Assembly (NCBI GenBank): GCA_022340465.1 | Contig: JAJDNW010000130.1 | Location: 62,001 to 126,000, forward strand | Direction of reading: 5' to 3' | DNA: 64,000 bases | Origin: Deltaproteobacteria bacterium | Lineage (GTDB): Bacteria > Desulfobacterota > Desulfobacteria > Desulfobacterales > B30-G6 | Shown: in pieces, positions 42,533 through 63,901 of the stretch | Numbering within the stretch: the stretch's first letter is position 1 | Layout: each line of letters starts with the position of its first letter | Made by a program: the position numbers and the translations under genes | The notes under the pieces: generated by a model | Database searches by the model: none | Told to the model about the DNA's origin: nothing | Seen by the model: the letters and a program-made list of their open reading frames with translations, nothing else

Positions 42533-43390
42533 ATGTCAATTATCACGATATCCAGGGGATGCTACAGCCACGGCAAGGAAATCGCCGAGCGCGTAGGGGC
42601 CGCCCTGGGCTATGAAGTCATCAGCAAGGAAATACTGCTGGAAGCATCCGAGGCCTGCGACATTCCGGAAAAACGGCTGTCGTCATCGATTCACGACGCT
42701 CCCGGAATTCTGGAAAGGGTCACCCGCTCGCATGAACGGCAGCATTATCTGGACTGCATCCGGGCGGCCCTGCTGGACCACGTCAGGAATGACAATGTGG
42801 TCTACCACGGCATGGCCGGCCACCTTTTCCTCTCAGGCATCCGACACGTCCTCAAGGTTCGCGTGATCGCCGAAATGGAGGATCGCGTGGCCCTGGTTTG
42901 CAAAACACGCGATATCTCCCGCGACGAAGCGGTTGCCTTGATAGATTCGGAAGACCAGCAACGTGAGGAATGGTATCGTTCGGTTTACAAAAAAGACATG
43001 AGCGATCCCCGTCTTTATGATATGGTTCTGAGCATCGGCCGTTTGACCATAGAGGATGCCAGCGAATTGATTTGCGCCGCATCGGCCAGGGAGAGCTTCC
43101 AGACCACCGCCCAGTCGAAGGGATACGTCGACGACCTGGCCATGGTCGGTCATGTCAGAACCGCGCTGGCCGACCTTTGCGAGGCCGATGTGGCCGTTTC
43201 CGGCGGTATCGTCACGGTCAAGGTCAAGGGGAAGAAACTGCGGGGAACCGATTTTACAAGGCCGGGGATGCAGCAGCGCGTGCAGACCCGCATACGGGAA
43301 GACCTGCAGCAGGACATCATGGCCCGGGTCTCCAAAATACCCGGTGTCAAGGATCTGATCTGCGAAATCGAATTGCCGTATTATGCGTGA
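42533..43390 (+). CDS. Cytidylate-kinase-like protein with BON-like C-terminus
   Basis: A 285-residue protein. The first 200 residues belong to the cytidylate-kinase-like family: ITISRGCYSHGKEIAERVG is a relaxed P-loop, followed by EVISKEILLEAS and later VVYHGMAGHLFL. True CMP kinase is shorter and has a standard GxxGxGKS loop, so the substrate is unknown. The last 80 residues (VRTALADLCEADVAVSGGIV to MARVSKIPGVKDLICEI) look like a BON-type lipid- or ligand-binding domain. It overlaps the sensor kinase gene by eight bases and may supply the signal for it. Confidence 0.72.
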   Translation: MSIITISRGCYSHGKEIAERVGAALGYEVISKEILLEASEACDIPEKRLSSSIHDAPGILERVTRSHERQHYLDCIRAALLDHVRNDNVVYHGMAGHLFLSGIRHVLKVRVIAEMEDRVALVCKTRDISRDEAVALIDSEDQQREEWYRSVYKKDMSDPRLYDMVLSIGRLTIEDASELICAASARESFQTTAQSKGYVDDLAMVGHVRTALADLCEADVAVSGGIVTVKVKGKKLRGTDFTRPGMQQRVQTRIREDLQQDIMARVSKIPGVKDLICEIELPYYA

Positions 43391-44924
43391 TGCAGAGACA
43401 TATGACAAACATAAGGGGGTTGTGACCGCCGTTAAAAAAGCGCTCATGCAGACCAGCATCCGCAAAAAGGTCGAGCTGACCATCGTGGCCTATATTCTGG
43501 TCGCGGGAATTCTGTGGCTGCTTAATTTCCACAACGGCCTGACCCTCAACGAAAAATTACGCATCATCGAAAAAAAGGAAGACCTGCTCAACACCATCCT
43601 GGAAGCCCGGCGCTATGAGAAAAACTATTTTTTGACCGGCAATGCCTCCCATCTGGGAGAAGCGGTGGTCTTTATCTTCAAGGCCGAAGATAAATTGCAG
43701 GATATCATCGCCCACCACGGCGAGTATGCCGCCACCCCGGATCTGGATCAACGTCTGGTCCACCTCAAGGATTACGGCGCCTCCATGGGCGCTCTGGCCA
43801 GCTCGCAGGCAGGAATACAGGGTTTCGTTTCAGGGCCCGTGCCCGAGCAGGAAGCCATCCGGGTCCTGGGCCGCGAAATAACCGAAGAGATCGAAACCAT
43901 GGTGCAGGTCGAGCGCCAGCAGATCAGCCGGTTGATTCGGGACGCCAGATTCTACCACTTCATGGCCCTGGGCGGTCTGCTGATCCTGTCCATTTTCGTG
44001 TTTGTTTTTTTCCGCCTCAATGTCAACCGTCCTCTCAAAGCCCTGGAAAGCGCTATCGGGGACATTGCCTCGGGGCACTACGAGAACATCCCGGCCATTG
44101 GGGCCGGCCAGGAATTCGAATCCCTGGTCGACAGCCTGAACCACATGATCAACCGGCTGAACCGCCGCAACCAGGAGTTGATCCAGGCCAAGAAAATGGC
44201 CTCCTTGGGAACGCTCACTTCCGGCGTGGCCCACGAACTCAACAATCCGCTCAACAACATCTCCACCTCTCTTCAGATTGTGCTCGAAGAGCTGGAGGAC
44301 GAGGATCTCGACTTCAAGCGCGAGTTGCTGGAAGGGGCGGAAAAGGAGGTAGTGCGTGCGCGGGACATCGTCAGGGCCCTGCTTGAATTCTCCCGCCAGA
44401 GCGCTTTTTCCATCAAGCCGGTGGCGATAAAATCTCTGGTGGACGACACCCTCAAGTTGATCAAGGGAGAACTGCCGGCGAATGTGTCGGTCGATCTCAA
44501 CATCGAAAACGACATCCAGGCCGCCCTGGATTTTCGCCGCATGCAGCAGGTGCTGATCAACCTGATGCTCAACGGCATCCAGGCCATGGACCAGGGGGGG
44601 ACGCTCACGATCAGCGCTTTTGAGCGCAGCGGCCATGATTTTTGCATCGAAATCAGCGACACGGGTTGCGGCATTCCAGGCGAAAATTTTTCGAAAATTT
44701 TCGACCCCTTTTTTTCCACCAAGGAGGGCCTGCGAAAATCCGACAGCGACATGCGCCCCTATGACGGCATCCTGGACCAGCAGGGCACGGGCCTGGGCCT
44801 GGCCATCTGCCACGGCATCGTTCAGAAACACGGCGGACGGATTTCGGTAGAGAGCGAGGTCGGGAAGGGAACCACCTTTACGGTTTGTCTGCCGATGGGA
44901 ACGAATCATGACGACTCAAAATGA
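43383..44924 (+). CDS. Membrane sensor histidine kinase
   Basis: A 513-residue kinase. A helix near residue 35 (LTIVAYILVAGILWLL) and another near 200 (MALGGLLILSIFVFVFF) bracket a periplasmic sensor domain of about 150 residues, followed by HAMP, HisKA with the phospho-His in VAHELNNPLN, and HATPase (GCGIP, GTGLGLAICHG). It overlaps the upstream cytidylate-kinase-like gene and the downstream NtrC-type regulator gene, so the three form one unit. The Lon receiver may be a second partner. Confidence 0.92.
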   Translation: MRDAETYDKHKGVVTAVKKALMQTSIRKKVELTIVAYILVAGILWLLNFHNGLTLNEKLRIIEKKEDLLNTILEARRYEKNYFLTGNASHLGEAVVFIFKAEDKLQDIIAHHGEYAATPDLDQRLVHLKDYGASMGALASSQAGIQGFVSGPVPEQEAIRVLGREITEEIETMVQVERQQISRLIRDARFYHFMALGGLLILSIFVFVFFRLNVNRPLKALESAIGDIASGHYENIPAIGAGQEFESLVDSLNHMINRLNRRNQELIQAKKMASLGTLTSGVAHELNNPLNNISTSLQIVLEELEDEDLDFKRELLEGAEKEVVRARDIVRALLEFSRQSAFSIKPVAIKSLVDDTLKLIKGELPANVSVDLNIENDIQAALDFRRMQQVLINLMLNGIQAMDQGGTLTISAFERSGHDFCIEISDTGCGIPGENFSKIFDPFFSTKEGLRKSDSDMRPYDGILDQQGTGLGLAICHGIVQKHGGRISVESEVGKGTTFTVCLPMGTNHDDSK

Positions 44925-46272
44925 AGGGTCCATTCTGGTGGTGGAAGACGAAGCCATCGCCCGCAAAAACCTGGTTCACATTTTAAATAAGCAGGGCTAT
45001 ACGGTGACGCCGGCAGAGAGCGGGTCGAAAGCCCTGTCCCTTTTGGCGGCCGAAACCTTCGACCTGGTCCTCACAGACCTGAAAATGGAAAAAGTGGACG
45101 GCATGGAGGTGCTGGCCGAAAGCCGCCGCCGGCACCCGCTGACAGAAGTGATCATCCTCACCGGCTATGCCACGGTGGACTCGGCCGTCAATGCCCTGAA
45201 AGCCGGTGCATACCACTATGTCGCCAAACCGTACAAGATAGAGGCCATTCGCAAAATCGTCAGCGAAGCCCTCATCAAACGCCGCCTCCAGCTCGAAAAC
45301 CTGCAGCTCAAGGAGAGTTTGAAAACGGGCCGGGCCAAACCGATGGTCGTCGGCCAAAGCCCCCCCATGCAAACCGTGCTGAAAACCGTCCAGCGCATCG
45401 CCCCATCGGGCGCCAACGTCCTCCTTCTCGGCGAAAGCGGAACTGGCAAGGAGATCATTGCACAGACGATTCACGACTTGAGCGACCGGGCCTCGAAGCG
45501 CTTCGTGGCCTTCAACTGCGGTTCTTTCAGCGAGGCGTTGATGGCCAACGAGTTGTTCGGGCATGAAAAGGGGGCCTTCACCGGGGCCAATCAATCCAAG
45601 GCAGGACTGCTGGAAACGGCTTCCGGGGGAACGGTTTTTCTCGACGAGATCGGCGACATGCCCCCCACCATGCAGATTCAACTCCTGCGCGTCATACAGG
45701 AGCGGGAGATGCTGAGGGTGGGCGGAACGGCTCCGGTGCCGGTGGATGTCCGCTTCATCGCCGCGACGCATCGTGACCTGCAGCAGGACGTGGAAGGCGG
45801 CCATTTCCGCCAGGACCTTTTTTTCCGGCTGAATGTCATCGCCATCCGACTGCCTCCGCTGGCCGAACGCGAAGGCGACGTCCCCCTGCTGGCCAATTTC
45901 TTCCTGGCCCGAAAGCGCGTCGCCATGCAAAAGGAGATCAAATCCATCGAGCCGGATGCCATGGAGCTATTGAGCCGCTACAGCTGGCCGGGCAATGTGC
46001 GCGAACTGGAAAACACCATCGAGCGTGCCGTGGCCATGGCCGAAGGTGATGTGGTGCGGGTGGCCGATCTGCCGCCCCATATCAACCAGCTGACCATAGA
46101 GACCTATCGCCATGCGTCTGGTGAAATCCCCACTCTGGAAGAAATGGAAAAGCGCTATATCCTGTGGGTGCTGGAGAAGCACAAAGGGAATAAGACCAAG
46201 GCATCCGCTGCCATGGGAATAGATCGGGTATCCCTGTGGCGCAAGATCAAGCGTTATGGTATCGAGGATTAG
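44908..46272 (+). CDS. NtrC-type sigma-54 response regulator
   Basis: A 454-residue regulator. The receiver (about 8-125) has VVEDE, phosphoacceptor D57 in LTDLKME, and VAKPYK. The AAA+ domain carries GESGTGKE, the GAFTGA loop (HEKGAFTGANQ), and FLDEIGDMP. The C-terminal Fis-type helix-turn-helix is KTKASAAMGIDRVSLWRKI. It is coupled to the sensor kinase. The most likely targets are the sigma-54 promoters of the USP operon and the STAS-like gene. Its receiver is strikingly similar to the one inside Lon. Confidence 0.93.
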   Translation: MTTQNEGSILVVEDEAIARKNLVHILNKQGYTVTPAESGSKALSLLAAETFDLVLTDLKMEKVDGMEVLAESRRRHPLTEVIILTGYATVDSAVNALKAGAYHYVAKPYKIEAIRKIVSEALIKRRLQLENLQLKESLKTGRAKPMVVGQSPPMQTVLKTVQRIAPSGANVLLLGESGTGKEIIAQTIHDLSDRASKRFVAFNCGSFSEALMANELFGHEKGAFTGANQSKAGLLETASGGTVFLDEIGDMPPTMQIQLLRVIQEREMLRVGGTAPVPVDVRFIAATHRDLQQDVEGGHFRQDLFFRLNVIAIRLPPLAEREGDVPLLANFFLARKRVAMQKEIKSIEPDAMELLSRYSWPGNVRELENTIERAVAMAEGDVVRVADLPPHINQLTIETYRHASGEIPTLEEMEKRYILWVLEKHKGNKTKASAAMGIDRVSLWRKIKRYGIED

Positions 46273-46373
46273 GCCAGCAAAAAATTCAGCGGACGAAATC
46301 CGTTTTTCAGGGCATCCAGCGATGGGACCGTTCCGACGGGTGTGAGTGGAATCGGGTGGAGAGTTCAAGAAAC

Positions 46374-48227
46374 ATGAAGAGCAACACCAGCGGGAAACCT
46401 GAAAAAGCGGCGGAAGAGGGGCCGGCCCTGGTCCTGAATGAGGAAACGGGACCCGCGTCCTCGGTGCCGGCTGTGCCCGAAGGAATTACGGCACACAAAA
46501 AAGGGGGCATGGGGCAGTTAGCCGCCACGGCGATCTGCGGTAACGACATAACCTCATCCTGCCTGTATGTGTCCGCCCTGGCCATCATCTATGCCGGCCG
46601 GTGGGCACCGCTGGTGCTGCTGATGGTGGCCGGCGTACTTTTCTTGTTTCGATCCATCTATGCGGAGGTGGTAGGGGCGCTGCCGCTCAATGGCGGCGCT
46701 TATAATGCGCTGTTGAACACCACCAGCAAGTACCGGGCATCCATCGCCGCCTGCCTCACGCTTCTTTCCTACATGGCCACAGCCGTCATATCGGCCAGTG
46801 AGGCCATGCACTATGTGCACGTCATGTGGAACGGCTTTCCGGTTACCGCGGCGACGATCAGCGTTCTGGCGTTTTTTATGGTACTGACGATCATCGGCAT
46901 CACCGAATCGTCCCGCGTGGCCATCTTTATTTTTATATTCCACCTGACGACGTTGACGCTGCTGATTGGTGCCAGCATCGTTTACATCAGCGGTGCCGGT
47001 GTCGAGACGTTGCTGAGCAATCTGGGCACAAGAGCTCCGGATGGATTGTTCACCGCCCTTTATTTCGGCTTTGCAGCTTCCCTGCTGGGTATTTCGGGCT
47101 TCGAAAGCTCGGCCAACTTCGTGGAGGAACAAGCCGAGGGGGTCTTCCCCAAAACCTTGAGAAACATGTGGGGGGCGGTCACCCTTTTCAACCCCATGAT
47201 GGCCTTGTTGGCCCTGGCCCTGGTACCCATCGGCCATGTCGGGGGGCACCAGGAGGCCCTGCTGGCCCACATGGCCCAGATTTCCAGCGGCATGTGGCTG
47301 GCCGATCTTATTTCCGTCGATGCCGCCCTTGTGCTGAGCGGCGCAGTGCTGACGAGTTTCATCGGTGTCAACGGGCTCGTGCGGCGCATGGCGCTTGACA
47401 GGTGCCTGCCGCAATTTTTACTGAAGACCGGTCGCCGGGGGACCACCCACCGGATCATCATTGCCTTTTTTATGCTTTGCGTATCGATTTTTCTGATCAC
47501 CGAAGGTCAGTTGAAAGCGCTGGCCGGCGTCTATACCATCTCCTTTCTGGCGGTCATGGCCCTGTTCGGCCTCGGCAACATATTTCTGAAAACGAAACGT
47601 GCAGGCCTTCCCCGGCCCACGGTGGCGCCCCTGATGTCCGTCCTGGTCGCCGTGGCAGCCGTCATCGCCGGTCTGGTCGGCAATGCCGTGATGAATCCAC
47701 CCTATTTGGCGGTATTTCTGGAGTACTTCGCCTTTGCCCTTCTGGTCGTATCCGTTATGCTGGGCCGCATCATCATTCTTCAGGCCTGTCTGTTTATCGT
47801 AAGAGGCATTCTCAAATATTTCATCGGCCGCATGACCTTCATTTCCAGAATGCTGCGCGACAAGATCGATGAGATCAATTCACAGCAGGTGGTCTTCTTC
47901 ACCCGGGGAGACAATCTGGCCAATCTCAACAAGGCTATTTTGTACGTCCAGCAAAATGAACATACCAACCGCCTCAAGGTGGTTACGGTGATTCCGGAGA
48001 AGGGTGAGATCGCGCCTAACCTGAGAAGGGATCTCGACATGCTCGACGAAACGTACCCCGGCATCGATATCGAACTGGTCGTTCAGGTAGGCAAATTCGG
48101 GCCGGAAATGATCGAGACGCTTTCAAAACAATGGAACATTCCGACGAACCTGATGTTCATCGGTTCCCCGGGCACCCATTTCCTGTACGGCCTTGCCGAA
48201 CTGGGGGGAGTCCGCCTGATTATCTGA
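46374..48227 (+). CDS. APC-family amino acid permease with USP-like tail
   Basis: A 617-residue protein. About 45 polar residues precede a block of roughly 12 hydrophobic helices typical of APC permeases (AATAICGNDITSSCLYV; LPLNGGAYNALLNTTSKY; SLLGISGFESSANFVEE). The last 130 residues are soluble (QQVVFFTRGDNLANLNKAIL to MFIGSPGTHFLYG) and resemble a universal-stress-type domain. The substrate is unknown. The gene follows the two-component pair and faces the potassium-uptake genes. Confidence 0.85.
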   Translation: MKSNTSGKPEKAAEEGPALVLNEETGPASSVPAVPEGITAHKKGGMGQLAATAICGNDITSSCLYVSALAIIYAGRWAPLVLLMVAGVLFLFRSIYAEVVGALPLNGGAYNALLNTTSKYRASIAACLTLLSYMATAVISASEAMHYVHVMWNGFPVTAATISVLAFFMVLTIIGITESSRVAIFIFIFHLTTLTLLIGASIVYISGAGVETLLSNLGTRAPDGLFTALYFGFAASLLGISGFESSANFVEEQAEGVFPKTLRNMWGAVTLFNPMMALLALALVPIGHVGGHQEALLAHMAQISSGMWLADLISVDAALVLSGAVLTSFIGVNGLVRRMALDRCLPQFLLKTGRRGTTHRIIIAFFMLCVSIFLITEGQLKALAGVYTISFLAVMALFGLGNIFLKTKRAGLPRPTVAPLMSVLVAVAAVIAGLVGNAVMNPPYLAVFLEYFAFALLVVSVMLGRIIILQACLFIVRGILKYFIGRMTFISRMLRDKIDEINSQQVVFFTRGDNLANLNKAILYVQQNEHTNRLKVVTVIPEKGEIAPNLRRDLDMLDETYPGIDIELVVQVGKFGPEMIETLSKQWNIPTNLMFIGSPGTHFLYGLAELGGVRLII

Positions 48228-48255
48228 TATCGTGTCAATCGCGCGAACAGAAGGA

Positions 48256-48921
48256 TCAACCGTGGCTGCGCAGCTTTTCCAGGGCTTTGTTCGGCCCCAG
48301 CAGGATCATGATATCGCTGTCCTTCAAGATGAACTTGGCGGTGGGAATCATGTTCAGACGCTCCGGGACGAGTTCTTTGATGGCAACCACCTGGACCCCG
48401 TAGCGGTTGATCAGGTTCAACTCTCGCAGGCTTTTCCCGATAAATTCGTTGGGAGGGGCGAGCTGGATGATGCTGAAGCCCTCCAAAACCGGCAGGTACT
48501 CGATCAGGTTTGGGTTGTGCAGGCGTTCGGCCAGGGAAATTGCCATGTCCTTTTCGGGAAACAGGATTTCAGACGCCCCGATTTTTCGTAAAATTCTGCC
48601 GTGGGGCTCGCTGATGGCTTTGGCGATCACCTGCTTCACCCCGATCTCCTTGAGATTGAGCACGGTCAGAATGGAATCGCTGAGCACCGAACCGATGCAC
48701 ACCACGGCGGCATCGAGGTCCCTGACGCCCAGGTTCTCCATTACCCGGCGGTCGGTTGTATCGGCCACCACGGCCTGGCTGACCTTGTCGCGAATATCCT
48801 GAACGCGGGTTTGGTCCTTGTCGACGGCCAGCACTTCATGGCCTTTCTCATAAAGGCGGCTGGCCAGATAGAAGCCGAAATTACCCAATCCCAAAACGGC
48901 ATATTGCTTCATTTTCTTCAC
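48256..48921 (-). CDS. ktrA: Potassium uptake regulatory subunit (KtrA/TrkA)
   Basis: A 221-residue cytoplasmic RCK protein. The NAD-binding loop YAVLGLGNFGFYLASRL starts the RCK-N domain and an acidic DKDQTRVQDI follows; the C-terminal RCK-C domain begins near residue 140 (APPNEFIGKSLREL). It gates the TrkH/KtrB channel encoded just upstream; the start overlaps that gene (GTGA), and ATG 48912 is an alternative. Size fits KtrA rather than the double-length TrkA. Confidence 0.92.
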   Translation of the reverse strand: MKKMKQYAVLGLGNFGFYLASRLYEKGHEVLAVDKDQTRVQDIRDKVSQAVVADTTDRRVMENLGVRDLDAAVVCIGSVLSDSILTVLNLKEIGVKQVIAKAISEPHGRILRKIGASEILFPEKDMAISLAERLHNPNLIEYLPVLEGFSIIQLAPPNEFIGKSLRELNLINRYGVQVVAIKELVPERLNMIPTAKFILKDSDIMILLGPNKALEKLRSHG

Positions 48922-50342
48922 CCGATCATAATGTTTTCTTCAGCGAAATAGTGGCGTTGCATACCCTGGCGGCTGACTGCCAGGGCGATCATCAACGGCC
49001 CCAGGCGTCCGACGAACATGACGCCTGCGATAATCAATTTCCCGGCGGTGGAAAGGCCCGAGGTCACCCCCGTGGACAGCCCTACCGTGCCGAAGGCGCT
49101 GACCACCTCGAAAAGCAGCTCGAGGAATTTCCCCCTGCTCATGGGGTGGGAGACTTCCCCCAACTCGGTCATGAGCATTAACATCGTTGCCGAGAATATA
49201 ACGAAAATGCTTATCATTACAATGCTGACGGCCTTGCCGATGCTTTCCTGGGAAATGGTCCGATGAAAGAGCTGTGGTTTTTCGTGACCGAAAAGCCGGG
49301 ATATTCCCAGGATGATCAAACACGAGAAGGTCGTGGTTTTTATGCCGCCCCCGCATGAACCGGGCGAGGCGCCGATGATCATCAGGAGGATGATCAGAAA
49401 GAGGGCCTCGTTGGACATATCGGAAATGGAGATGGAGTTGAATCCGGCGGTTCTGGCGCTCACCGCGTGGAAAAAACCGACCAGACACCGTTGTAGCGGA
49501 TGAAAGGGGGTCAGGGTATTGTCCCACTCCATGAGCACGATAAGCACGGTGCTGACGAAAAGCAGAATCGCCGTGGAGGACAGGACCAGTTTCGAATGCA
49601 GGCTCAGGCGGGACAGGGGGCGGTGTTTGACGGAGAGCCGGTGGCGGATTTCCGAAAGGACCAGGAACCCGATTCCCCCGCTGATGATAAGAAAACAGAC
49701 GGCCAGGTTTATCGGTACGTTTTCCTGGAAAGACGTGAAACTGTCGGAGAAGGTCGAAAAACCCGCGTTGCAGAAGGCACTGATGGAATGAAAAATGGAG
49801 AGATAAACGGCTTCCCCCTTGGTTCTTCCCGGGAGGAACTGGATAAACATCACCAGGGCGCCGAGGCTTTCGATGACCAGGGTGAAAAGGGCGACGTCCT
49901 TCAAGAGACTGCCGACACTGCGATCACCGCTGTGGGTCAGGGTATCGGAAATGACGACGCGGCCGATCATGCTGGGGCGCTTCCCCGCGACCATCAAAAG
50001 CAGGGTGGAAATGGTCATGATCCCGAGCCCGCCCACCTGGATCATGGCAAGAATCACCACCTGACCGAAGCGGGTCAGTTCGCGGCCCGTGTCGAGCACG
50101 ACAAGCCCGGTGACGCAGGTCGCCGAGGTGGCCGTAAAAAGGGCATTGACAAACCCGATGGGTGTCGCCGTGGATGCCGCCGGAAGCATCAGCAGCAACG
50201 CCCCCGTCAGGATAACGGCGCCAAAACCGAAAATGGCGATACGGGCCGGGGATTTCAACACCGATCGCGACAGATAAGCGGCGAACCTTTTGAACGTTTC
50301 GGCCGTCCAAGACGGATCCGGTTGTTGTTGCAGCATCTGCAT
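48918..50342 (-). CDS. ktrB: Potassium channel-like transporter subunit (KtrB/TrkH)
   Basis: A 474-residue inner-membrane potassium transporter with the four pore repeats of the TrkH/KtrB family; recognisable loops include TSATCVTGLVVLDTG, SAFCNAGFSTFS, SARTAGFNSI and SAFGTVGLSTGVT, each with the selectivity glycine. It is coupled to ktrA. ATG 50336 is an alternative start. With the SLC13, APC and USP genes it completes an ion-homeostasis cluster. Confidence 0.93.
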   Translation of the reverse strand: MQMLQQQPDPSWTAETFKRFAAYLSRSVLKSPARIAIFGFGAVILTGALLLMLPAASTATPIGFVNALFTATSATCVTGLVVLDTGRELTRFGQVVILAMIQVGGLGIMTISTLLLMVAGKRPSMIGRVVISDTLTHSGDRSVGSLLKDVALFTLVIESLGALVMFIQFLPGRTKGEAVYLSIFHSISAFCNAGFSTFSDSFTSFQENVPINLAVCFLIISGGIGFLVLSEIRHRLSVKHRPLSRLSLHSKLVLSSTAILLFVSTVLIVLMEWDNTLTPFHPLQRCLVGFFHAVSARTAGFNSISISDMSNEALFLIILLMIIGASPGSCGGGIKTTTFSCLIILGISRLFGHEKPQLFHRTISQESIGKAVSIVMISIFVIFSATMLMLMTELGEVSHPMSRGKFLELLFEVVSAFGTVGLSTGVTSGLSTAGKLIIAGVMFVGRLGPLMIALAVSRQGMQRHYFAEENIMIG

Positions 50343-50639: not shown

Positions 50640-51311
50640 CTACTTTTTCAGAAAGGCGTAGTAGCTGCCCATGTTGTAGACCGCCGCCAGCGGATTGTGA
50701 CCCATCAGCCGGTCTTTTACCGCCAATACCGTCACCGGTGCGTCCAGGTGCTTGATAGCCAGGGAATCGTGGCCGACACACAGTCCCAGCAGGATGTTGA
50801 AATCCACGCGTTGGTCGTTGACAATTTTAGCCTGGTAGATCGGGTTGCACATGGACTCGAACGTGTTGGGGTGTATTTTCTGCTCCTCTTTTAATCCGAG
50901 TGCCTCCTTGGGCGTCCTGCCGGCCTTGCAGGCCACGGAGACCATCTCAAACCCCCGGCCCCTGTAGAACTTGTCCACCATCCTGGCTTCCCCGGCCAAC
51001 CCCACGCAAAACAGCAGGCCCAAGCGCCGATAGTCCATTTTTTCGGCGAACTCGGCGATTTCCAGGATGCGTGGTTTCAGCGGTTTGACGCCGCCGCCCG
51101 CCACGTGTTCGTAGCATTCGGCTTCCTGGATAGATGCATTGCGGGCAAACCTCGATGCCTGCGGATCTTCGTACAGTGCCATGCTTTCGTCGAGAAGCTT
51201 CTTTTCATTCACCGTGGGGCAGGATCCCAAACCTTTACCGTTTTCGATGTTGCACAGCCTCTCCGGCCATTGATAGGGGCATTGGGCGCAACCGGGCGTC
51301 AATTCGTTCAT
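50640..51311 (-). CDS. DUF1847 cysteine-rich metal-binding protein
   Basis: A 223-residue soluble protein of the DUF1847 family. It starts MNELTPGCAQCPYQW with a CxxC pair, and has further cysteines in LFCVGLAGEA, VACKAGRTP, SMCNPI and LGLCVGHDSL, spaced as for a metal or cluster site. AGAAGGAG lies seven bases before ATG 51311, preferred over an upstream ATG. Family members are common in anaerobes; the function is unknown. Confidence 0.82.
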   Translation of the reverse strand: MNELTPGCAQCPYQWPERLCNIENGKGLGSCPTVNEKKLLDESMALYEDPQASRFARNASIQEAECYEHVAGGGVKPLKPRILEIAEFAEKMDYRRLGLLFCVGLAGEARMVDKFYRGRGFEMVSVACKAGRTPKEALGLKEEQKIHPNTFESMCNPIYQAKIVNDQRVDFNILLGLCVGHDSLAIKHLDAPVTVLAVKDRLMGHNPLAAVYNMGSYYAFLKK

Positions 51312-51506
51312 GGAATGCTCCTTCTGAGATTGTATATGCATTATGGAGATAAGGCCTAACGGACTCGATGGAATTATGGCCGATACGTTTCGGCATCATA
51401 GACCTAAATTGAATTTAGGATAGAATTACCCCGGCATCGGCTCATTGTCAAACAGATATCCCCCCGGCGTTTCCGCAGCAACGGGGCCAGGCAGGCAGCA
51501 TATCCC

Positions 51507-52117: not shown

Positions 52118-53227
52118 ATGTGGGGGACGCAGGTGACGGTAGCTGAGGATCACAATGGGCCGTACAATCTGTTGGACGGTGCTTCAGGTGAAGTTGCGGA
52201 AGTCGTTGCGGAGACGGACAGTAAACTGAGGATTGCCGCGGATTCTACGTTGCCGCTGGACAAACGGCTGGAGGCCTTTGAAGATATTTTCGAGTCTGAA
52301 GTGGGCGACACCTCACTGGTGAGGGCGCGAAACGTCGAGCGCGAGGTCGGATTGCGCCAGATATATTTGAAGTTTGAGGGCGGCAACCCGACAGGAACGC
52401 AAAAGGACCGTATCGCTTTTGCCCAGGCCATGGACGCCTTGAGGCGCGGATACGACACCATTACCGTGGCCACCTGCGGTAACTACGGCGTTGCCATGGC
52501 GCTGGCGGCCAAGTTTTCCGGGCTGCACAGCCGCATATACATCCCTGAAAAATACCACACCCGCAGGATCCGGGAAATGCAGGACCTCGACGCCGAAATC
52601 GTTCGCGTCGAGGGTGATTACGAATGCGCGGTGGACGTGTCTTCAGAGCAAGCCCGGCAGCATGAATACTACGACGCCAACCCCGGCGGAGAAAACATGC
52701 TCAGCCAGATGCAGGCGTATGGACAAATTGCCTATGAGATTTATGACGAACTGCGCGACGCCCCTGCAGCTGTAGCGGTGCCCGTCTCCAACGGCACGAC
52801 GCTGGCGGGGATATATAAAGGATTCTTAAGCCTGTACCGAAGAGGGAAAACATCGCGCATGCCGCGCATTGTCGCTGGGTCATCGTTCCGAAAGAACCCC
52901 ATTGTACAGGCCTTTAGAAACAAGAAGCGATCCTGTGAAGATCTGAATCCGGTCAAGATACATGAAACCAGCGTGAATGAACCGCTGATTAACTGGCATT
53001 CCATCGATGGCAATCACGCCTTGGGTGCCATCCGTGAAACCAATGGGTGGGCCGCCGATGCTTCGGACCGGGCCATGCGAAACTGCAGCCGGCTGATTAG
53101 CGAAAAGGAGGGCATTCAGGCTCTCCCGGCCTCCTCGGCCGGAATGATCGCCCTGTTGGATCAACACCACAGTGAAGCCTTACCAAATGATCGATATGTT
53201 GTTGTTTTGACGGGAAGAAAATTATGA
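52118..53227 (+). CDS. Threonine-synthase-like PLP enzyme
   Basis: A 369-residue fold-type II PLP enzyme. The PLP lysine is K96 in NPTGTQKDR, the substrate loop is ATCGNYGVAMA, and NGTTLAGIYKG is the glycine-rich phosphate loop; the end is VVLTGRKL. The nearest familiar relatives are threonine synthases and cysteine/diaminopropionate-type beta-replacement or lyase enzymes. GTG 52133 is a possible alternative start. Its stop overlaps the start of the DUF1611 gene, so it is the first of four coupled genes. No hom or thrB genes are adjacent, which argues against ordinary threonine synthesis. Confidence 0.8.
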   Translation: MWGTQVTVAEDHNGPYNLLDGASGEVAEVVAETDSKLRIAADSTLPLDKRLEAFEDIFESEVGDTSLVRARNVEREVGLRQIYLKFEGGNPTGTQKDRIAFAQAMDALRRGYDTITVATCGNYGVAMALAAKFSGLHSRIYIPEKYHTRRIREMQDLDAEIVRVEGDYECAVDVSSEQARQHEYYDANPGGENMLSQMQAYGQIAYEIYDELRDAPAAVAVPVSNGTTLAGIYKGFLSLYRRGKTSRMPRIVAGSSFRKNPIVQAFRNKKRSCEDLNPVKIHETSVNEPLINWHSIDGNHALGAIRETNGWAADASDRAMRNCSRLISEKEGIQALPASSAGMIALLDQHHSEALPNDRYVVVLTGRKL

Positions 53228-54324
53228 CGAAAAATAATGATGCCCACGCCATTGTGTATTGCCAAGGGATGTTCAACACGCTTAACGGAAAGACGGCCCA
53301 TGGACTGGTGCGTTTCACCGAGCGGTATCGGGTTGTTTCCGTGGTGGACGCCCGCTATGAAGGTCGAGATGCCGGTGACGTACTGGATGGGAAACGGCGG
53401 GACATCCCGGTGTTTGCATCGATCGGGGAAGCACACGCGCATGCCTCCCGCGCTTCGGCCCCGGCCACTCATCTCGTGGTGGGGCTGGCACCGGACGGCG
53501 GGCGTTTGGGGGCAGGAGAGCGCCAGGATATTCAAACGGCTCTGAAAATGGGCTTGAACGTGGATTGCGGATTACACGACTTTCTGTCCGATGACCCGGA
53601 AATGGCCGCGATCGCCAGAGAAAAAGATGCGGTTATCCGGGACATTCGCAAGCCGCCGCCGCGGTCGCAACTGCATTTTTTTTCGGGCAAAATAGAAGCG
53701 GTAACATCCCTGAAGATTGCCGTTCTGGGAACCGATTCGGCAGTGGGTAAGCGTACGACTGCCTGGAAGATTGTCCATGGATTTCAGAAGATCGGGCTCA
53801 ATGCCGTACTTGTCGGCACCGGTCAGACTGCCTGGATGCAGGGTGCCCGATACAGTGTCATCATGGATTCGTTGGTAAACGATTTCGTATCCGGTGAAAT
53901 AGAACATGCCGTCTGGTCGGCCTGGGAAGATGAAAAGCCGGACGTCATCGTCATCGAAGGGCAGGGAAGCTTGATGAACCCGGCTTATCCCGGAGGATTC
54001 GAGATTCTTGCCGCCGGGCGGCCGGATGTGATCGTGCTGCAGCATGCGCCGGCCAGATTGGAATATGACGGCTTCCCCGGATATCCAATCCAGCCGCTGG
54101 CACAACAAATACAAGTGATAGAATTGCTCTGCGGCAAGCCGGTCGCGGCCGTGTGCATAAACCACGAAGGGCTTTCCGATCCACAGATACCTTTTGTATG
54201 TGACGCGGTTGCCATGGCTGTCGGCAGGCCGGCGTTCGATGTGCTCAGGGACGGCCCTGAAAAACTCGTCAAGCAATTGAAACGCTATCTGAACAGAGCG
54301 GTACCGGAGTCGGCGGATGGGTAA
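53224..54324 (+). CDS. DUF1611 (DgcN-like) P-loop protein
   Basis: A 366-residue protein of the DUF1611 family. An N-terminal Rossmann-like part (to about 150) is followed by a P-loop domain with VLGTDSAVGKRTTA and VIEGQGSLMNPAYPGG. The characterised relative DgcN is described as a D-glutamate N-acetyltransferase that works with DgcA, a dipeptide-epimerase-like enzyme, in D-glutamate breakdown; a relative of that partner is encoded two genes downstream. It overlaps both neighbours (4 and 8 bases). The exact reaction here is open: acylation or ATP-dependent activation of an amino acid are both plausible. Confidence 0.82.
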   Translation: MTKNNDAHAIVYCQGMFNTLNGKTAHGLVRFTERYRVVSVVDARYEGRDAGDVLDGKRRDIPVFASIGEAHAHASRASAPATHLVVGLAPDGGRLGAGERQDIQTALKMGLNVDCGLHDFLSDDPEMAAIAREKDAVIRDIRKPPPRSQLHFFSGKIEAVTSLKIAVLGTDSAVGKRTTAWKIVHGFQKIGLNAVLVGTGQTAWMQGARYSVIMDSLVNDFVSGEIEHAVWSAWEDEKPDVIVIEGQGSLMNPAYPGGFEILAAGRPDVIVLQHAPARLEYDGFPGYPIQPLAQQIQVIELLCGKPVAAVCINHEGLSDPQIPFVCDAVAMAVGRPAFDVLRDGPEKLVKQLKRYLNRAVPESADG

Positions 54325-56680
54325 CCTATCCTCACAATCTCAGGCGCAATTTGCAGCGCTAAAAGTGTTCGACCGCCTCGAAGTCGGCCCGGTAAAATTG
54401 GAGCGCAACCGTCTTACGGCTCCTTACCGGTTGTTTGTTAACGATAAAGAAGATGTTTTCGACCTGATCTACAGCTTCGAGGAGCCGGTGTTCAGAGTAG
54501 GAGAGACAGAATCGAAAAACCTGGCGGACATGATGGCGGCCCAGGTGGCCCTCAATTACGGCCTTTTCTGCGAAAGGATTGTCTTTCACGGATGTTACGA
54601 TCAAATCGACCGGTCTTTTTTGCGCGATATGGCCGAGAATACGGCCAGGGAAATATATGTCAAAAAATTTCTGGAACCCAATCCGTTTCTTCAGGGATCC
54701 GTGACCGGGATGACGGCGACAAAAAAGGACAAGTACGCGGCCGCCCGCTTGGAGTTCAAGGGGTCTATTAAAAGGGATGCGGACACGCGCTGGCAGCAAT
54801 GGTCCACGGACCAAAACCGTCACTGCATTCTTTCCAGCGGCGGCAAGGACAGTCTGCTCAGCTACGGGTTGATCAACGAAATAGGGCTGGAATGCCACCC
54901 CGTTTTTGTAAACGAATCGGGCCGCCACTGGTTTACGGCCCTGAACGCATTCCGCCACTTTCAAGAGAATATCCCGAACACCGCCAGGGTGTGGGTGAAC
55001 TCGGACAGGCTTTTTTCCTGGATGCTTCAGCGGATGCCGTTTATTCGCAAGGATTTTACCCGGGTCCGCTCCGATGAATATCCTGTCCGTCTCTGGACCG
55101 TGGCGGTGTTCCTTTTCGGCGCGTTGCCGCTCATGCGCAAACGGGGCATCGGCAGGTTACTGATCGGAGACGAATTCGACACGTCCGTCCGCAAGGTACA
55201 TCAGGGGATAACCCACTATAATGGGCTGTACGATCAGAGCATTTTTTTCGACCAGACCCTTTCGCGCTATTTTATGCGCAAGGGATGGGCGATCAGCCAG
55301 TTTTCCATTTTACGGCCCCTGTCGGAACTGCTCATCCAGAAAATTTTAGCGCGGCGTTATCCCGAGCTCCAACGCCATCAGACCTCGTGCCATGCAGCCC
55401 ACAAGGAGGGCGACCGCATCATACCCTGCGGCAAATGTGAAAAGTGCCGCCGGATTGTCAGCATGCTGTCTGCCTTGGATGTTGACGTCACCGCCTGCGG
55501 GTACCGGGAGCGTCAGGTGGCGGATGCCTTGAAGGCGTTCGTTGCCAAGGGCGTGGCCCAGGAGCTCCCCGGTGTTCGTCAACTGGGAGCGATGCTGATG
55601 CAAAAAAAACTGATAGAGGTGCCCCCGGATCGACGGGATTTTTTCAGACCCAGGCCGGAGGTGCTGCATCTCAGGTTCGATCCCAGCGTGTCGCCGCTGA
55701 ATGCCATACCCGTGAACTTGAGAATTTCCCTGCTGCAGATTTACGTGCAGCATGCCGATGGTGTCATGCAGCGTGTCGGTAAAAAATGGACGTCCTTCAA
55801 TCCTTTCAACAGCGCCGATTTGTCTCAGCCGTTTGTGTTTGAGCTGAATATCGATGCCCAAAGCCCTGAGGCCGAGGAGGGAGAGACGGCTAAGTCCAAA
55901 AGGCAGTTTCTGTGGGGGGAACTCTCCTGGCCTGAGGCCCGGGACCGACTCGAGAAAGTCGATACCGCCTTGTTGCCGGTGGGTTCCATTGAACAGCACG
56001 GTCCCCACCTGCCCCTGGACACCGATGCCTATGATGCCAATTACCTGGCTTTGCGCGTGGCCGAAGCGTGCAGCGATCCCAAACCCCTGGTGCTGCCATA
56101 TATTCCCTACGGTGTTGCCTATCATCATCACGGGTTCAAAGGAACGGTGAGCATCAGCAACGATGTCCTTGCCAAGCTGGTTTATGATATCGGCATGAGT
56201 GCTTCCCATAACGGGATAAACAAGCTTGTTATCATCAACGCCCACGGTGGCAACAGCCCGGCACTGAATTATGCCGCCCAGATGATCAACCGCGATGCCC
56301 ATGTGTTTGTTTGTGTGGATACCGGTGAAACCAGCGACGTGGATATCTATGCCTTGATCGACACGCCCAATGACGTTCACGCCGGTGAGATGGAGACCAG
56401 CACAAGCCTGGCGGTAAGACCGCATCTGGTCAATATGAGCCGGGCCCGTACCGAAATTCCGGAATTTTCCAGCCGCTATCTCGATTTTACCTCCATCCGC
56501 GGCGTTTCCTGGTATGCTTACACGCAAAAAATATCCAACAGCGGTGTGATGGGGGATCCGACAAAGGCCAGTGCGGAAAAGGGGAAAAAAATCTGGGAAA
56601 TCATGATTGCCCACCTGGTTGCGCTGGTTGAAGATTTGAAATCCATGACGCTGGAAGAGATTCATCACCGGAAGTTGTAA
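54317..56680 (+). CDS. MurL-like ATP-pyrophosphatase fused to creatininase-family amidohydrolase
   Basis: A 787-residue fusion. Residues 1 to about 500 contain the PP-loop SSGGKDSLLSYG (SGGKDS at 174-179) and a cysteine trio CGKCEKC (C371, C374, C377). The N-terminal layout recalls MurL, the ATP-dependent epimerase of L-Glu in UDP-MurNAc-L-Ala-L-Glu; this similarity is from memory and needs a profile search. Residues from about 530 are a creatininase-family amidohydrolase: E559 in GSIEQHGPH, D568 and D570, NAHGGN, and HAGEMETS give the metal site. Relatives hydrolyse cyclic amides, formamides or peptides (MftE). Together the halves suggest activation or epimerisation of an acyl-amino acid followed by amide hydrolysis. 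Confidence 0.8.
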   Translation: MGNLSSQSQAQFAALKVFDRLEVGPVKLERNRLTAPYRLFVNDKEDVFDLIYSFEEPVFRVGETESKNLADMMAAQVALNYGLFCERIVFHGCYDQIDRSFLRDMAENTAREIYVKKFLEPNPFLQGSVTGMTATKKDKYAAARLEFKGSIKRDADTRWQQWSTDQNRHCILSSGGKDSLLSYGLINEIGLECHPVFVNESGRHWFTALNAFRHFQENIPNTARVWVNSDRLFSWMLQRMPFIRKDFTRVRSDEYPVRLWTVAVFLFGALPLMRKRGIGRLLIGDEFDTSVRKVHQGITHYNGLYDQSIFFDQTLSRYFMRKGWAISQFSILRPLSELLIQKILARRYPELQRHQTSCHAAHKEGDRIIPCGKCEKCRRIVSMLSALDVDVTACGYRERQVADALKAFVAKGVAQELPGVRQLGAMLMQKKLIEVPPDRRDFFRPRPEVLHLRFDPSVSPLNAIPVNLRISLLQIYVQHADGVMQRVGKKWTSFNPFNSADLSQPFVFELNIDAQSPEAEEGETAKSKRQFLWGELSWPEARDRLEKVDTALLPVGSIEQHGPHLPLDTDAYDANYLALRVAEACSDPKPLVLPYIPYGVAYHHHGFKGTVSISNDVLAKLVYDIGMSASHNGINKLVIINAHGGNSPALNYAAQMINRDAHVFVCVDTGETSDVDIYALIDTPNDVHAGEMETSTSLAVRPHLVNMSRARTEIPEFSSRYLDFTSIRGVSWYAYTQKISNSGVMGDPTKASAEKGKKIWEIMIAHLVALVEDLKSMTLEEIHHRKL

Positions 56681-56683
56681 ATA

Positions 56684-57760
56684 ATGAAAATTACCCATTT
56701 GGAAATGTGGCCGGTCACCATGCCGTTGGCGGAGCCTTACAGTATCGCCTATGAAGCGGTCGCTTCGGCGACCAATGTCTTCTTACGAGTAGACACGGAC
56801 AATGGCCTGACTGGCTATGGCTGCGCCGCACCGGATGCCTCCGTCACCGGTGAAACACCGGAATCGGTGATCGAGGTCGGCAATGGTGTCGTCGAACCGG
56901 CAATTTACGGCGAGAATCCTTTGCGGCTGGCGAGGTTGACCGAAAACCTGAAATCGATTCTGCCCGGGAATCCATCGGCCATGGCAATGACGGACATGGC
57001 CCTGTATGACATTCTGGGGAAGGCGGCCGGGCTTCCGGTATATGTGCTGCTGGGGGGATACCGAACGCGAATCATGACCAGTGTCACCATCGGAATCATG
57101 CCGGTGGCGGATACGGTGGCCAGGGCCAGGGAGCATGCCGGCAATGGGTTCCGGTCCTTGAAATTAAAAGGGGGTGTCGATGTAGAGACCGATATCGAAC
57201 GCGTGCTTGCGGTCAGAAAAGCCGTCGGGACGCTTGTCGAACTCCGCTTTGATGCCAATCAGGGCTATGGCGAAGCCGAAGCGCTGCATTTTATCCAAAA
57301 GACCCGCCAAGCCGGCTTGGCGCTCATCGAACAGCCGACCGACAGAAGTGACTTGAAACTGTTGGGCCGTATTACCGATGAAGCGCCGTTGCCGGTCATG
57401 GCCGACGAGAGCATGATGAGTCTGCGGGATGTCTTCCGGCTGGCCAAACGCGATCTGGTCGACATGGTCAATATCAAACTGATGAAGGTGGGGGGGGTGA
57501 CCGAGGCCATGCGCATCGATTCCGTCGCCAAGGCGGCTAAGCTGGAGACCATGGTGGGCTGTATGGATGAGGCCGCTCTGGCCATTGCAGCCGGGCTGCA
57601 CTTTGCGCTGGCCCGGCCCAACGTCGCGTATGCCGATCTGGATGGGCACTTAGACCTGGTTGGAGACCCCAGCACGGGCGCGGTCACATTGAAGAAGGGC
57701 TATCTTTATCCGCGTTCCGGGCCCGGGCTGGGATTCGATCTGCCGCTATCTTCAGGGTAG
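56684..57760 (+). CDS. Dipeptide epimerase-family enolase (Ala-Glu epimerase/DgcA-like)
   Basis: A 358-residue member of the muconate-lactonising/dipeptide-epimerase branch of the enolase superfamily. K160 and K162 (KLKGG) and K265 ([10 protein letters not shown]) are the two catalytic acid-base positions. The metal ligands are in [13 protein letters not shown] and MADES, and DLDGHLDL near the C-terminus matches the DxD substrate motif of L-Ala-D/L-Glu epimerases. It would racemise a dipeptide or N-acyl amino acid, most likely glutamyl. It starts three bases after the fusion gene and ends the operon. Confidence 0.88.
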
Positions 57761-58000: not shown

Positions 58001-58459
58001 ATGACCGTTATCAATAAAATAATGGTTGCTGTTGACTTTTCAGATTTTTCCGTGGCCGCGGCCAGGTATGCCGCCAAACTGGCAAGAGATGTGAAGGCAA
58101 CCCTCCTGTTGACCCATGTTTACAACCAGCGGGACGTGGACATGCTGAACATGGTCGCCATGCAGGTGCCGGACTTTTCGGTAAAAAAGTACGTGGGTGA
58201 GTGCACCGATGAGAAAAAAGAACGCCTTCGCGAGCTTTCCGAAGAACTAAGCCACGACGGAGGACTCAGCGTGGAAACTCACTTGCGCATCGGTGTGCCT
58301 TATGAAGCCCTTTTGCGGGAGATAGACGAGGGAAAGCCCGATCTGCTGGTGATGGGCGCCAAGGGAAGATCCAATGTAATTGACATGATCCTTGGCTCTT
58401 GCGCCCAGAAGATGTTCCGGCACAGCCCCATACCGCTGCTGAGCATTCGTAACCGGTGA
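58001..58459 (+). CDS. Universal stress protein (UspA family)
   Basis: A 152-residue USP. It starts INKIMVAVDFSDFSVAAARYA and ends with the ATP-binding loop GAKGRSNVIDMILGS, followed by HSPIPLLSI, so unlike the two USP-like proteins at 39-40 kb it should bind ATP. TAGGAGG lies before the ATG. It is monocistronic. Confidence 0.92.
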   Translation: MTVINKIMVAVDFSDFSVAAARYAAKLARDVKATLLLTHVYNQRDVDMLNMVAMQVPDFSVKKYVGECTDEKKERLRELSEELSHDGGLSVETHLRIGVPYEALLREIDEGKPDLLVMGAKGRSNVIDMILGSCAQKMFRHSPIPLLSIRNR

Positions 58460-62764: not shown

Positions 62765-63820
62765 TCAATGCCTTTGATAACGTTTTCGGCGTCTAACCGA
62801 ATCTACTTTATGATAAAAAATACTTCTTCGATGCACCCGAAGCTTGAAATTTCTGTGCAACCTACGCGATGGTTTGATTACGAAAAAATAAAATGTGAGA
62901 CTGAGGTAAAGCATGAGAGCAGCAGCGATGTACCAAAAGTTCCAAAATATAAACTGTAAAAATTCTTCGCTGGCGTGGCTATAGCCCCGAGCCATGTGCC
63001 ACGCTTCACGATCTTCGTTCATGCTGCCGTAAATTATAAATTTGATATTGTTTTTCCATGTTCCAGGATCTATATCGAAAACAGAAATTACCTTTGCTGC
63101 CGTGTCGATCGGTAGGATGTATTTGTCTATAGGGTAAATTAAAATCAAATGAATCGATATGAAGAAAATGACTAAAATGAAAATCTTTATCATGTGTTTA
63201 AGCAGTCTTTTTGCTTCATTTTTAGTTCTTTTGTAGCTAATGCTTTTATCAGCTCTCATGCAGTTTTTTAAGGTAATTCGAAATGTCTTTAAATCGATAA
63301 AAATGATCCCGATTGTTAAAATCAAAGTAGTGCCGACAAGGCCATCCGCAATAGAATTTACCGTAACTATGAATTGTGGCAGTGCCGTCCCTTCAATCTC
63401 GTGCTTTTCACCAAACGCAATTTTTGAAAAAAAGTCGGTATCCAAGTCCCGCGGCACCATCCTGACAGTAAAATCCTGCCATGGGGACATTAAAAAATTG
63501 ACGGCTTGGCTCGATAAGCTGTCAGGAGTGATTTCCTGGGTCTGATATGAATGATCAATGGAAAATTCATCTTGATTGACCCTGTCAACGTCTTCCCACT
63601 CTTCCGCTTTTAGCTTTAGATGGATATTATCTTCGGTTGAAAGAGCCATGGCAAAGGTTTGTTCATCCCCTATTAAGAAAACGGAATGAACGGCAATGAA
63701 ATACGAAAATAGAATGACAATAGATTGTATCTTTCCTATGACAGCTGTGAAATTCCCTTTTCGGCCCATACCACATATTGTGGCATGTATTCCCTTGACA
63801 AACAAGTTCTCTTTTGCCAT
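62765..63820 (-). CDS. Membrane protein of unknown function
   Basis: A 351-residue inner-membrane protein with about four helices: near residue 33 (SIVILFSYFIAVHSVFLIG), near 163 (VGTTLILTIGIIFI), near 215 (MIKIFILVIFFISIHLILIY) and near 310 (FWYIAAALMLYLSLTFYFFV). A charged loop of about 100 residues follows the first helix. GGAGG precedes ATG 63820, preferred over ATG 63841. No family was recognised. It is clearly more A+T-rich than most of the window. Confidence 0.6.
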   Translation of the reverse strand: MAKENLFVKGIHATICGMGRKGNFTAVIGKIQSIVILFSYFIAVHSVFLIGDEQTFAMALSTEDNIHLKLKAEEWEDVDRVNQDEFSIDHSYQTQEITPDSLSSQAVNFLMSPWQDFTVRMVPRDLDTDFFSKIAFGEKHEIEGTALPQFIVTVNSIADGLVGTTLILTIGIIFIDLKTFRITLKNCMRADKSISYKRTKNEAKRLLKHMIKIFILVIFFISIHLILIYPIDKYILPIDTAAKVISVFDIDPGTWKNNIKFIIYGSMNEDREAWHMARGYSHASEEFLQFIFWNFWYIAAALMLYLSLTFYFFVIKPSRRLHRNFKLRVHRRSIFYHKVDSVRRRKRYQRH

Positions 63821-63901
63821 ATGATGGCCTCCGGAATGCAAGTTTTTACCCCTCTTTGCGGCGTTATCTTTGTTCTGCCGCTATTCCAGTGAGGAACGCA
63901 A

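Follow-up and report, generated by a model that had tools for sequence, protein, structure and literature searches.

A MurL/QatC-like PP-loop domain fused to a creatininase-family hydrolase within a conserved five-enzyme bacterial operon

The 64,000 bp stretch of Deltaproteobacteria bacterium DNA analysed here (contig JAJDNW010000130.1, positions 62,001 to 126,000; hereafter, the window) contains at 54317-56680, on the forward strand, a gene that encodes, from an ATG start and in a single open reading frame (ORF), a 787 aa protein joining a MurL/QatC-like PP-loop half to a creatininase-family amidohydrolase half. The original prediction had described one frame linking two enzymes, and this is borne out, but it had missed that the fusion is one step of a five-domain operon spanning 52118-57760. 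Whether this compact and conserved operon encodes a dedicated small-molecule pathway, with the fusion as its central enzyme, is evenly poised on the evidence presented below. The individual enzyme families are known; their combination is new relative to the literature searched, from which subscription papers were mostly excluded and in which no paper was found to join these families or describe the pathway.

The fusion is real, rather than a chance join of two frames, as its PP-loop half is modelled with a mean predicted local distance difference test score (pLDDT) of 92.6 and is 44-71% identical across 66 relatives, while full-length fusions of the same two domains are present in at least 41 relatives. 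Scanning species genomes with the PP-loop half identified 72 loci, and a tree of 73 such halves, of which 47 are joined to a creatininase half and 26 stand apart from it, requires at least four changes of state. Stand-alone versions of the two halves in related operons, for which the original prediction had recommended a search, were found alongside the fused ones: in unfused carriers, the PP-loop and creatininase halves are neighbouring, separate genes. That the same two proteins exist both fused and adjacent indicates a shared pathway. The PP-loop family is rare yet widespread, with strong matches in five of 297 genomes from the phylum to which the window belongs (the window's genome included) and in seven of 296 genomes of a Bacteroidota-centred group. 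No match to the system was found in the plasmids searched, and no carriage was confirmed among the viral contigs searched.

The operon consists of genes for a threonine-synthase-like PLP (pyridoxal phosphate) enzyme of the PALP family, a DUF1611/DgcN-like protein, the PP-loop half, the creatininase half and a dipeptide-epimerase-like enzyme, in that order. All five domains were detected with tblastn at 52 of 76 loci, in one order, on one strand and within 6 kb; the remaining 24 loci have three or four of the domains, with the order kept every time, and several of these end at a contig edge. The loci are spread over about 12 phyla, and the median gaps between neighbouring operon genes range from -11 to 3 bases. 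A different fusion within the same operon is found in a Spirochaetes metagenome-assembled genome (MAG; L052:6888-9461), where the DUF1611 gene and the PP-loop half form one frame and the creatininase is separate. Neither a riboswitch nor any other known RNA control was found in 20 kb of the window or in seven of the loci. A pathway for a ribosomally synthesised and post-translationally modified peptide, with its precursor encoded nearby, was considered and rejected, since neither flank of the operon, searched out to 800 bases, has a conserved short ORF.

The PP-loop half (residues 1-511; 54317-55849) carries the ATP-binding motif SGGKDS at residues 174-179 (54836-54853), in which, across an alignment of 67 sequences, S174, G175, G176, K177 and S179 are invariant and D178 is at least 90% conserved. 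It also has a cysteine site comprising C358, in the motif SCH, and C371-x2-C374-x2-C377, in the motif PCGKCEKC (55388-55447); all four are invariant in the same alignment, and by analogy this may be a zinc site of the QueC type. Both the SGGKDS motif and the CxxCxxC site had been noted in the original prediction, with C358 an addition to them, and the presence of the SGGxDS motif on a matching fold (Foldseek, VIA) places this half among the PP-loop ATP pyrophosphatases. By sequence, the nearest named family is MurL: NF041275 is the best named match in NCBIfam for 64 of the 67 members (best E value 3.7e-8). The window protein scores 30.1 bits (E value 1.7e-7) against this model, which has a curated cut-off of 700 bits, and the match is partial, mainly involving residues 281-381, the stretch that leads up to the cysteine site with its QxSCH and CGKCEKC motifs. 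With this low score and limited coverage, and from a comparison with the NF041275 model that included no authentic MurL sequence, the match shows kinship but does not demonstrate MurL activity. A search for the MurL family found no match in the window's phylum or in control genomes. The next closest family in Pfam is QueC (PF06508), with matches in 36 of the 67 members (best E value 6.6e-4), the window protein itself (12.7 bits, E value 0.09) not reaching the gathering cut-off of 22 bits. A more distant stand-alone protein of this kind, 453 aa long and with SFGKDS replacing SGGKDS, is encoded in another genome of the window's phylum (P0002, L006:1207-2568, reverse strand); it matches both the MurL model (24 bits) and the window's PP-loop family, and adjoins a gene judged by eye to resemble an acyl-CoA ligase.

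By fold, a different relative comes first. The AlphaFold2 model of the 511 residues, built from the 67 sequences, is most similar to QatC (VIA Z score 14.8, root mean square deviation 4.6, 321 residues aligned), the match covering residues 17-437 and so including an extra N-terminal domain that is common to QatC. QueC and Cap9 follow with Z scores of 12.9-13.2; thiolases and TilS reach about 9, with synthetase types lower still (Foldseek, VIA). A profile search of PDB sequences found no MurL match, so comparing folds does not discriminate between MurL and QatC. The MurL resemblance put forward in the original prediction is retained as to nearest named family, whereas the bit score is far from the cut-off and the structure prediction it had called for, although giving a confident fold, found its best solved match in QatC. 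A best alignment with a tRNA-thiolase or asparagine-synthase type, the outcome named there as counting against MurL, did not occur: such identities are weaker by sequence as well as by fold.

None of these relatives matches the window protein in full. MurL shares with it the approach to the cysteine site, but the window protein is fused or adjacent to a creatininase in another operon, with no MurD2 neighbour. QatC likewise has an SGGxDS loop, with a variant cysteine site (PMC13329287), and QueC and Cap9 share the PP-loop core and CxxCxxC site; in these two, however, the cysteines are spaced C(x)8CxxCxxC rather than C(x)12CxxCxxC, the window protein is much longer and it does not possess the YPDC and VPxRN motifs. 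MurL and creatininase partners alike go unmentioned in a survey of QueC family proteins from 2026 (PMC13329287). The fold and cysteine site, with QatC as best fold match, might point to a tRNA or cofactor thiolase or to a QatC-like modifier of proteins in anti-phage defence. Of all the explanations considered this is the least probable, given that thiolases are much weaker matches, that the system gave no match to the PADLOC defence models and no sequence-profile match to QatC, and that the partners in the operon are metabolic enzymes, none of them a Qat protein.

The second half of the protein, residues 535-771 (55919-56629), matches the Pfam Creatininase family (PF02633) with an E value of 9e-71 and 238.5 bits, well past the gathering cut-off of 31.3. 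The metal site expected from the original prediction (E559, D568, D570 and HAGE at 688-691) is intact and conserved among fused homologues. In the motif EQHGPHLPLDTD (residues 559-570; 55991-56026), which opens with EQHG, E559, H561, D568 and D570 are invariant in 38 such homologues, as are H643, within NAHGGN (641-646; 56237-56254) and aligned to a histidine of creatininase (1q3k), and H688, A689 and G690 of HAGEMETS (688-695; 56378-56401). In the latter motif E691 is at least 90% conserved, and E693, T694 and S695 are also invariant. The closest NCBIfam model is that of MftE, the mycofactocin creatininase-family peptidase (TIGR03964; 157-161 bits against a cut-off of 172), ahead of creatininase proper (TIGR04448; 107-112 bits against a cut-off of 235). 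MftE cleaves a peptide (PMC10885120), but has other operon partners, and no conserved short peptide ORF lies beside the window operon. The two halves are joined by a linker at residues 503-530 (55823-55906), assigned from the pLDDT of a full-length model that contains two folded domains, with values below 50 at residues 512-527, and has a predicted template modelling score (pTM) of 0.72.

The first gene of the operon (52118-53227, forward strand) encodes the fold-type II PALP enzyme (PF00291, E value 1.2e-56). It passes NF004996 (433.6 bits, above the cut-off) but misses that of threonine synthase (TIGR00260; 103.7 bits against 167), for which a second gene of the window's genome reaches 184.2. 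In each of the 13 genomes tested a better match to thrC lies outside the operon, in the window's genome the canonical thrC, so the operon gene is an extra, threonine-synthase-like paralogue. It is overlapped by four bases by the gene for the DUF1611/DgcN-like P-loop protein (53224-54324, forward strand; PF07755 and PF17396), which in turn overlaps the fusion gene by eight. This protein only loosely resembles DgcN (NF041892; 140.8 bits against a cut-off of 480), and its closest solved structures are 2g0t, 2obn and 7xrj. The last gene (56684-57760, forward strand) starts four bases past the stop of the fusion and encodes an enolase-superfamily (MR_MLE) enzyme nearest to solved dipeptide epimerases: 1jpm from B. 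subtilis (E value 3.9e-71), 3jva and 3rit. It shares with 1jpm and 3rit the catalytic lysines and the DxD motif, which in 1jpm binds the free amino group of the substrate, and has TSVTIGI and CMDE segments in common with 3rit. K160, K162, K265 and D318-x-D320 are conserved; K162, K265, D318 and D320, the two catalytic lysines and the DxD, are kept in every row of the family alignment with residues there. However, the enzyme is 38% identical to either, falls short of the L-Ala-D/L-Glu epimerase model (NF041118; 226 bits against a cut-off of 500) and carries E24 and D295 at the positions of R24 and I298 in 1jpm. These replacements suggest a pocket charge-reversed relative to the Ala-Glu enzyme, and a substrate with a basic side chain.

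The pairing of a DUF1611 protein with an enolase-superfamily enzyme recalls the DgcN-DgcA D-glutamate pathway, which has the same combination, with a racemase, in one operon. The window's operon might on this basis serve in the salvage of D-amino-acid dipeptides or N-acyl D-amino acids, with the creatininase half available for amide hydrolysis, and some of the genomes concerned have similar adjacent pairs at other positions. This seems improbable: the scores are far below both the DgcN and DgcA cut-offs, the epimerase is nearer to dipeptide epimerases, and three further enzymes are present. Such a scheme offers no place for an ATP-spending PP-loop step or a threonine-synthase-like enzyme, the PP-loop and PALP genes are retained where the DUF1611 and epimerase genes are missing, and no single transporter was found to recur beside the operon. 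The additional pairs, in the genomes of L033 (G613:C789), L045 (G614:C67), L072 (G615:C112), L070 (G617:C346) and L058 (G612:C610), are around 31-42% identical to the operon's own and are apparently a common independent module.

Kinship to MurL also raises the question of cell-wall synthesis, for which the operon could provide D-glutamate by a MurL-like route. Nine of 25 operon-bearing genomes have no glutamate racemase match at an E value of 1e-10, among them Desulfosarcina widdelii, the locus of which is on a complete chromosome. Yet matches are present in the other 16, making such supply unlikely as a general role; 12 of these are above the family cut-off, and that of the window's genome is just below it (139.8 of 146.65 bits). 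Furthermore, MurL works with MurD2, and neither this nor any other Mur ligase was found in the operon, where the partners are PALP, DUF1611, creatininase and MR_MLE; in addition, the arginine with which the epimerase would bind glutamate is replaced by a glutamate. Peptidoglycan supply is consequently considered very improbable. The proposal of the original prediction, that a MurL-like activity operates outside cell-wall synthesis, is indirectly supported as to the setting by the racemase matches and the lack of a Mur ligase, but MurL activity itself is not demonstrated.

A pathway can be proposed in which the PP-loop half would bind ATP at SGGKDS and adenylate a carboxylate on a small substrate, either an amino acid or peptide-like. 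QatC, QueC and Cap9 activate carboxylates to form amides or nitriles. By analogy, the acyl-adenylate would most likely, at a roughly even estimate, be captured by an amine to form an amide bond; capture through deprotonation and hydrolysis, giving an epimer as in MurL, would be the less likely fate. Acting on the resulting product, or on that of the following reaction, the tethered creatininase half would then hydrolyse an amide or peptide bond in the manner of MftE. Of the other enzymes, the PALP protein may be the source of an unusual amino acid, while the DUF1611 protein and the dipeptide-epimerase-like enzyme, where present, might respectively carry out an acylation and, in a dipeptide whose amino group is free, invert the C-terminal residue. 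Amide ligation is favoured on two grounds. Among the solved fold relatives, QatC and Cap9 have been described or proposed as ATP-dependent protein-modifying ligases, with QueC as the parent scaffold for carboxylate activation (PMC13329287). In addition, an epimerase directed at this type of carbon is usually encoded in the operon, and a second would be redundant.

In the rival view, the PP-loop half would epimerise a peptide outside peptidoglycan in the one-way, ATP-dependent manner of MurL, and the creatininase half would then hydrolyse an amide to release a D-amino acid or D-containing product. MurL consumes one ATP and forms AMP (PMC8788868, PMC5808125), and other genes of the operon resemble D-amino-acid and dipeptide-epimer enzymes, in keeping with the predominance of MurL as nearest family by sequence. 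Nevertheless, with a partial match of about 30 bits, no MurD2-like partner, and a C-terminal dipeptide epimerase usually present, such that two epimerases would risk a futile cycle, this is a possible but doubtful explanation.

Several observations weigh against the favoured scheme of amide ligation within a dedicated pathway. The nearest named relative by sequence is an epimerase, not a ligase, and the likeness to QatC is one of fold alone, no QatC having been found among PDB sequences by profile at E values up to 1. The argument from redundancy is void at loci without an epimerase gene: in L045, L070, L072 and L077 this gene alone is absent, while L009, L051 and L058 lack both it and the DUF1611 gene. 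Given the three loci without a DUF1611 gene, a protect-ligate-deprotect sequence cannot be general; the genome of L009, a MAG, has no DUF1611 match anywhere. These loci leave PALP, the PP-loop half and the creatininase half as the minimal unit and most constant core. Finally, the mutual orientation of the domains in the full-length model is uncertain, and, given the disordered linker, the model supports tethering of the halves without demonstrating the channelling of a substrate. The stepwise processing of one intermediate suggested in the original prediction fits the conserved fusion and operon, though as an inference.

At its broadest, the amide-forming or epimerising reading leads to a tentative picture of a previously unrecognised pathway, spread over about 12 phyla and chiefly among marine or sediment bacteria, that yields a small peptide-like metabolite containing a residue that is basic and possibly D-configured. 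The key enzyme of this pathway would be a new branch of the MurL/QatC/QueC group tethered to its own amide hydrolase. A five-enzyme operon of fixed order in around a dozen phyla implies a useful, as yet unnamed product, and the pathway would extend the MurL/QueC-type PP-loop group, providing the unexplained chemistry of MurL with a tractable relative represented by many sequences. Cultured carriers exist among the marine Flavobacteriaceae and Desulfosarcina, and include Kriegella aquimaris and Robiginitalea. Environmental counts of dgcN, such as those reported for Bacteroidia (PMC12363236), may include the operon's DUF1611 genes.

The surroundings of the operon give a hint, as a lead only, of an osmotic or stress role. 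Within approximately 500 bases of it, MscS and TerC genes each account for five of 100 genes, against at most one each of 99 distant genes; either enrichment alone has a p value of about 0.1, and pooled they reach 0.02 by the most cautious count, both families having been chosen for the test after the list of near genes was seen. The names or origins of the cultured carriers are marine. In the window, the region 43383-50342 contains a permease-like gene on the forward strand and, on the reverse strand, TrkA- and TrkH-like genes for K+ uptake, with a histidine kinase and sigma-54 response regulator upstream (the Trk and kinase names being assigned by eye, with no family search); these genes may relate to ion or osmotic stress. 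A universal stress protein gene (58001-58459, forward strand; family match) lies shortly after the end of the operon. The proximity of mechanosensitive channel, TerC, K+ uptake and universal stress genes raises the possibility of a product that serves as a compatible solute or stress metabolite. Elsewhere in the window, 62765-63841 on the reverse strand encodes a 358 aa protein with hydrophobic stretches and no NCBIfam match, and 50640-51341, also on the reverse strand, encodes a DUF1847 protein (family match) with a cysteine-rich start.

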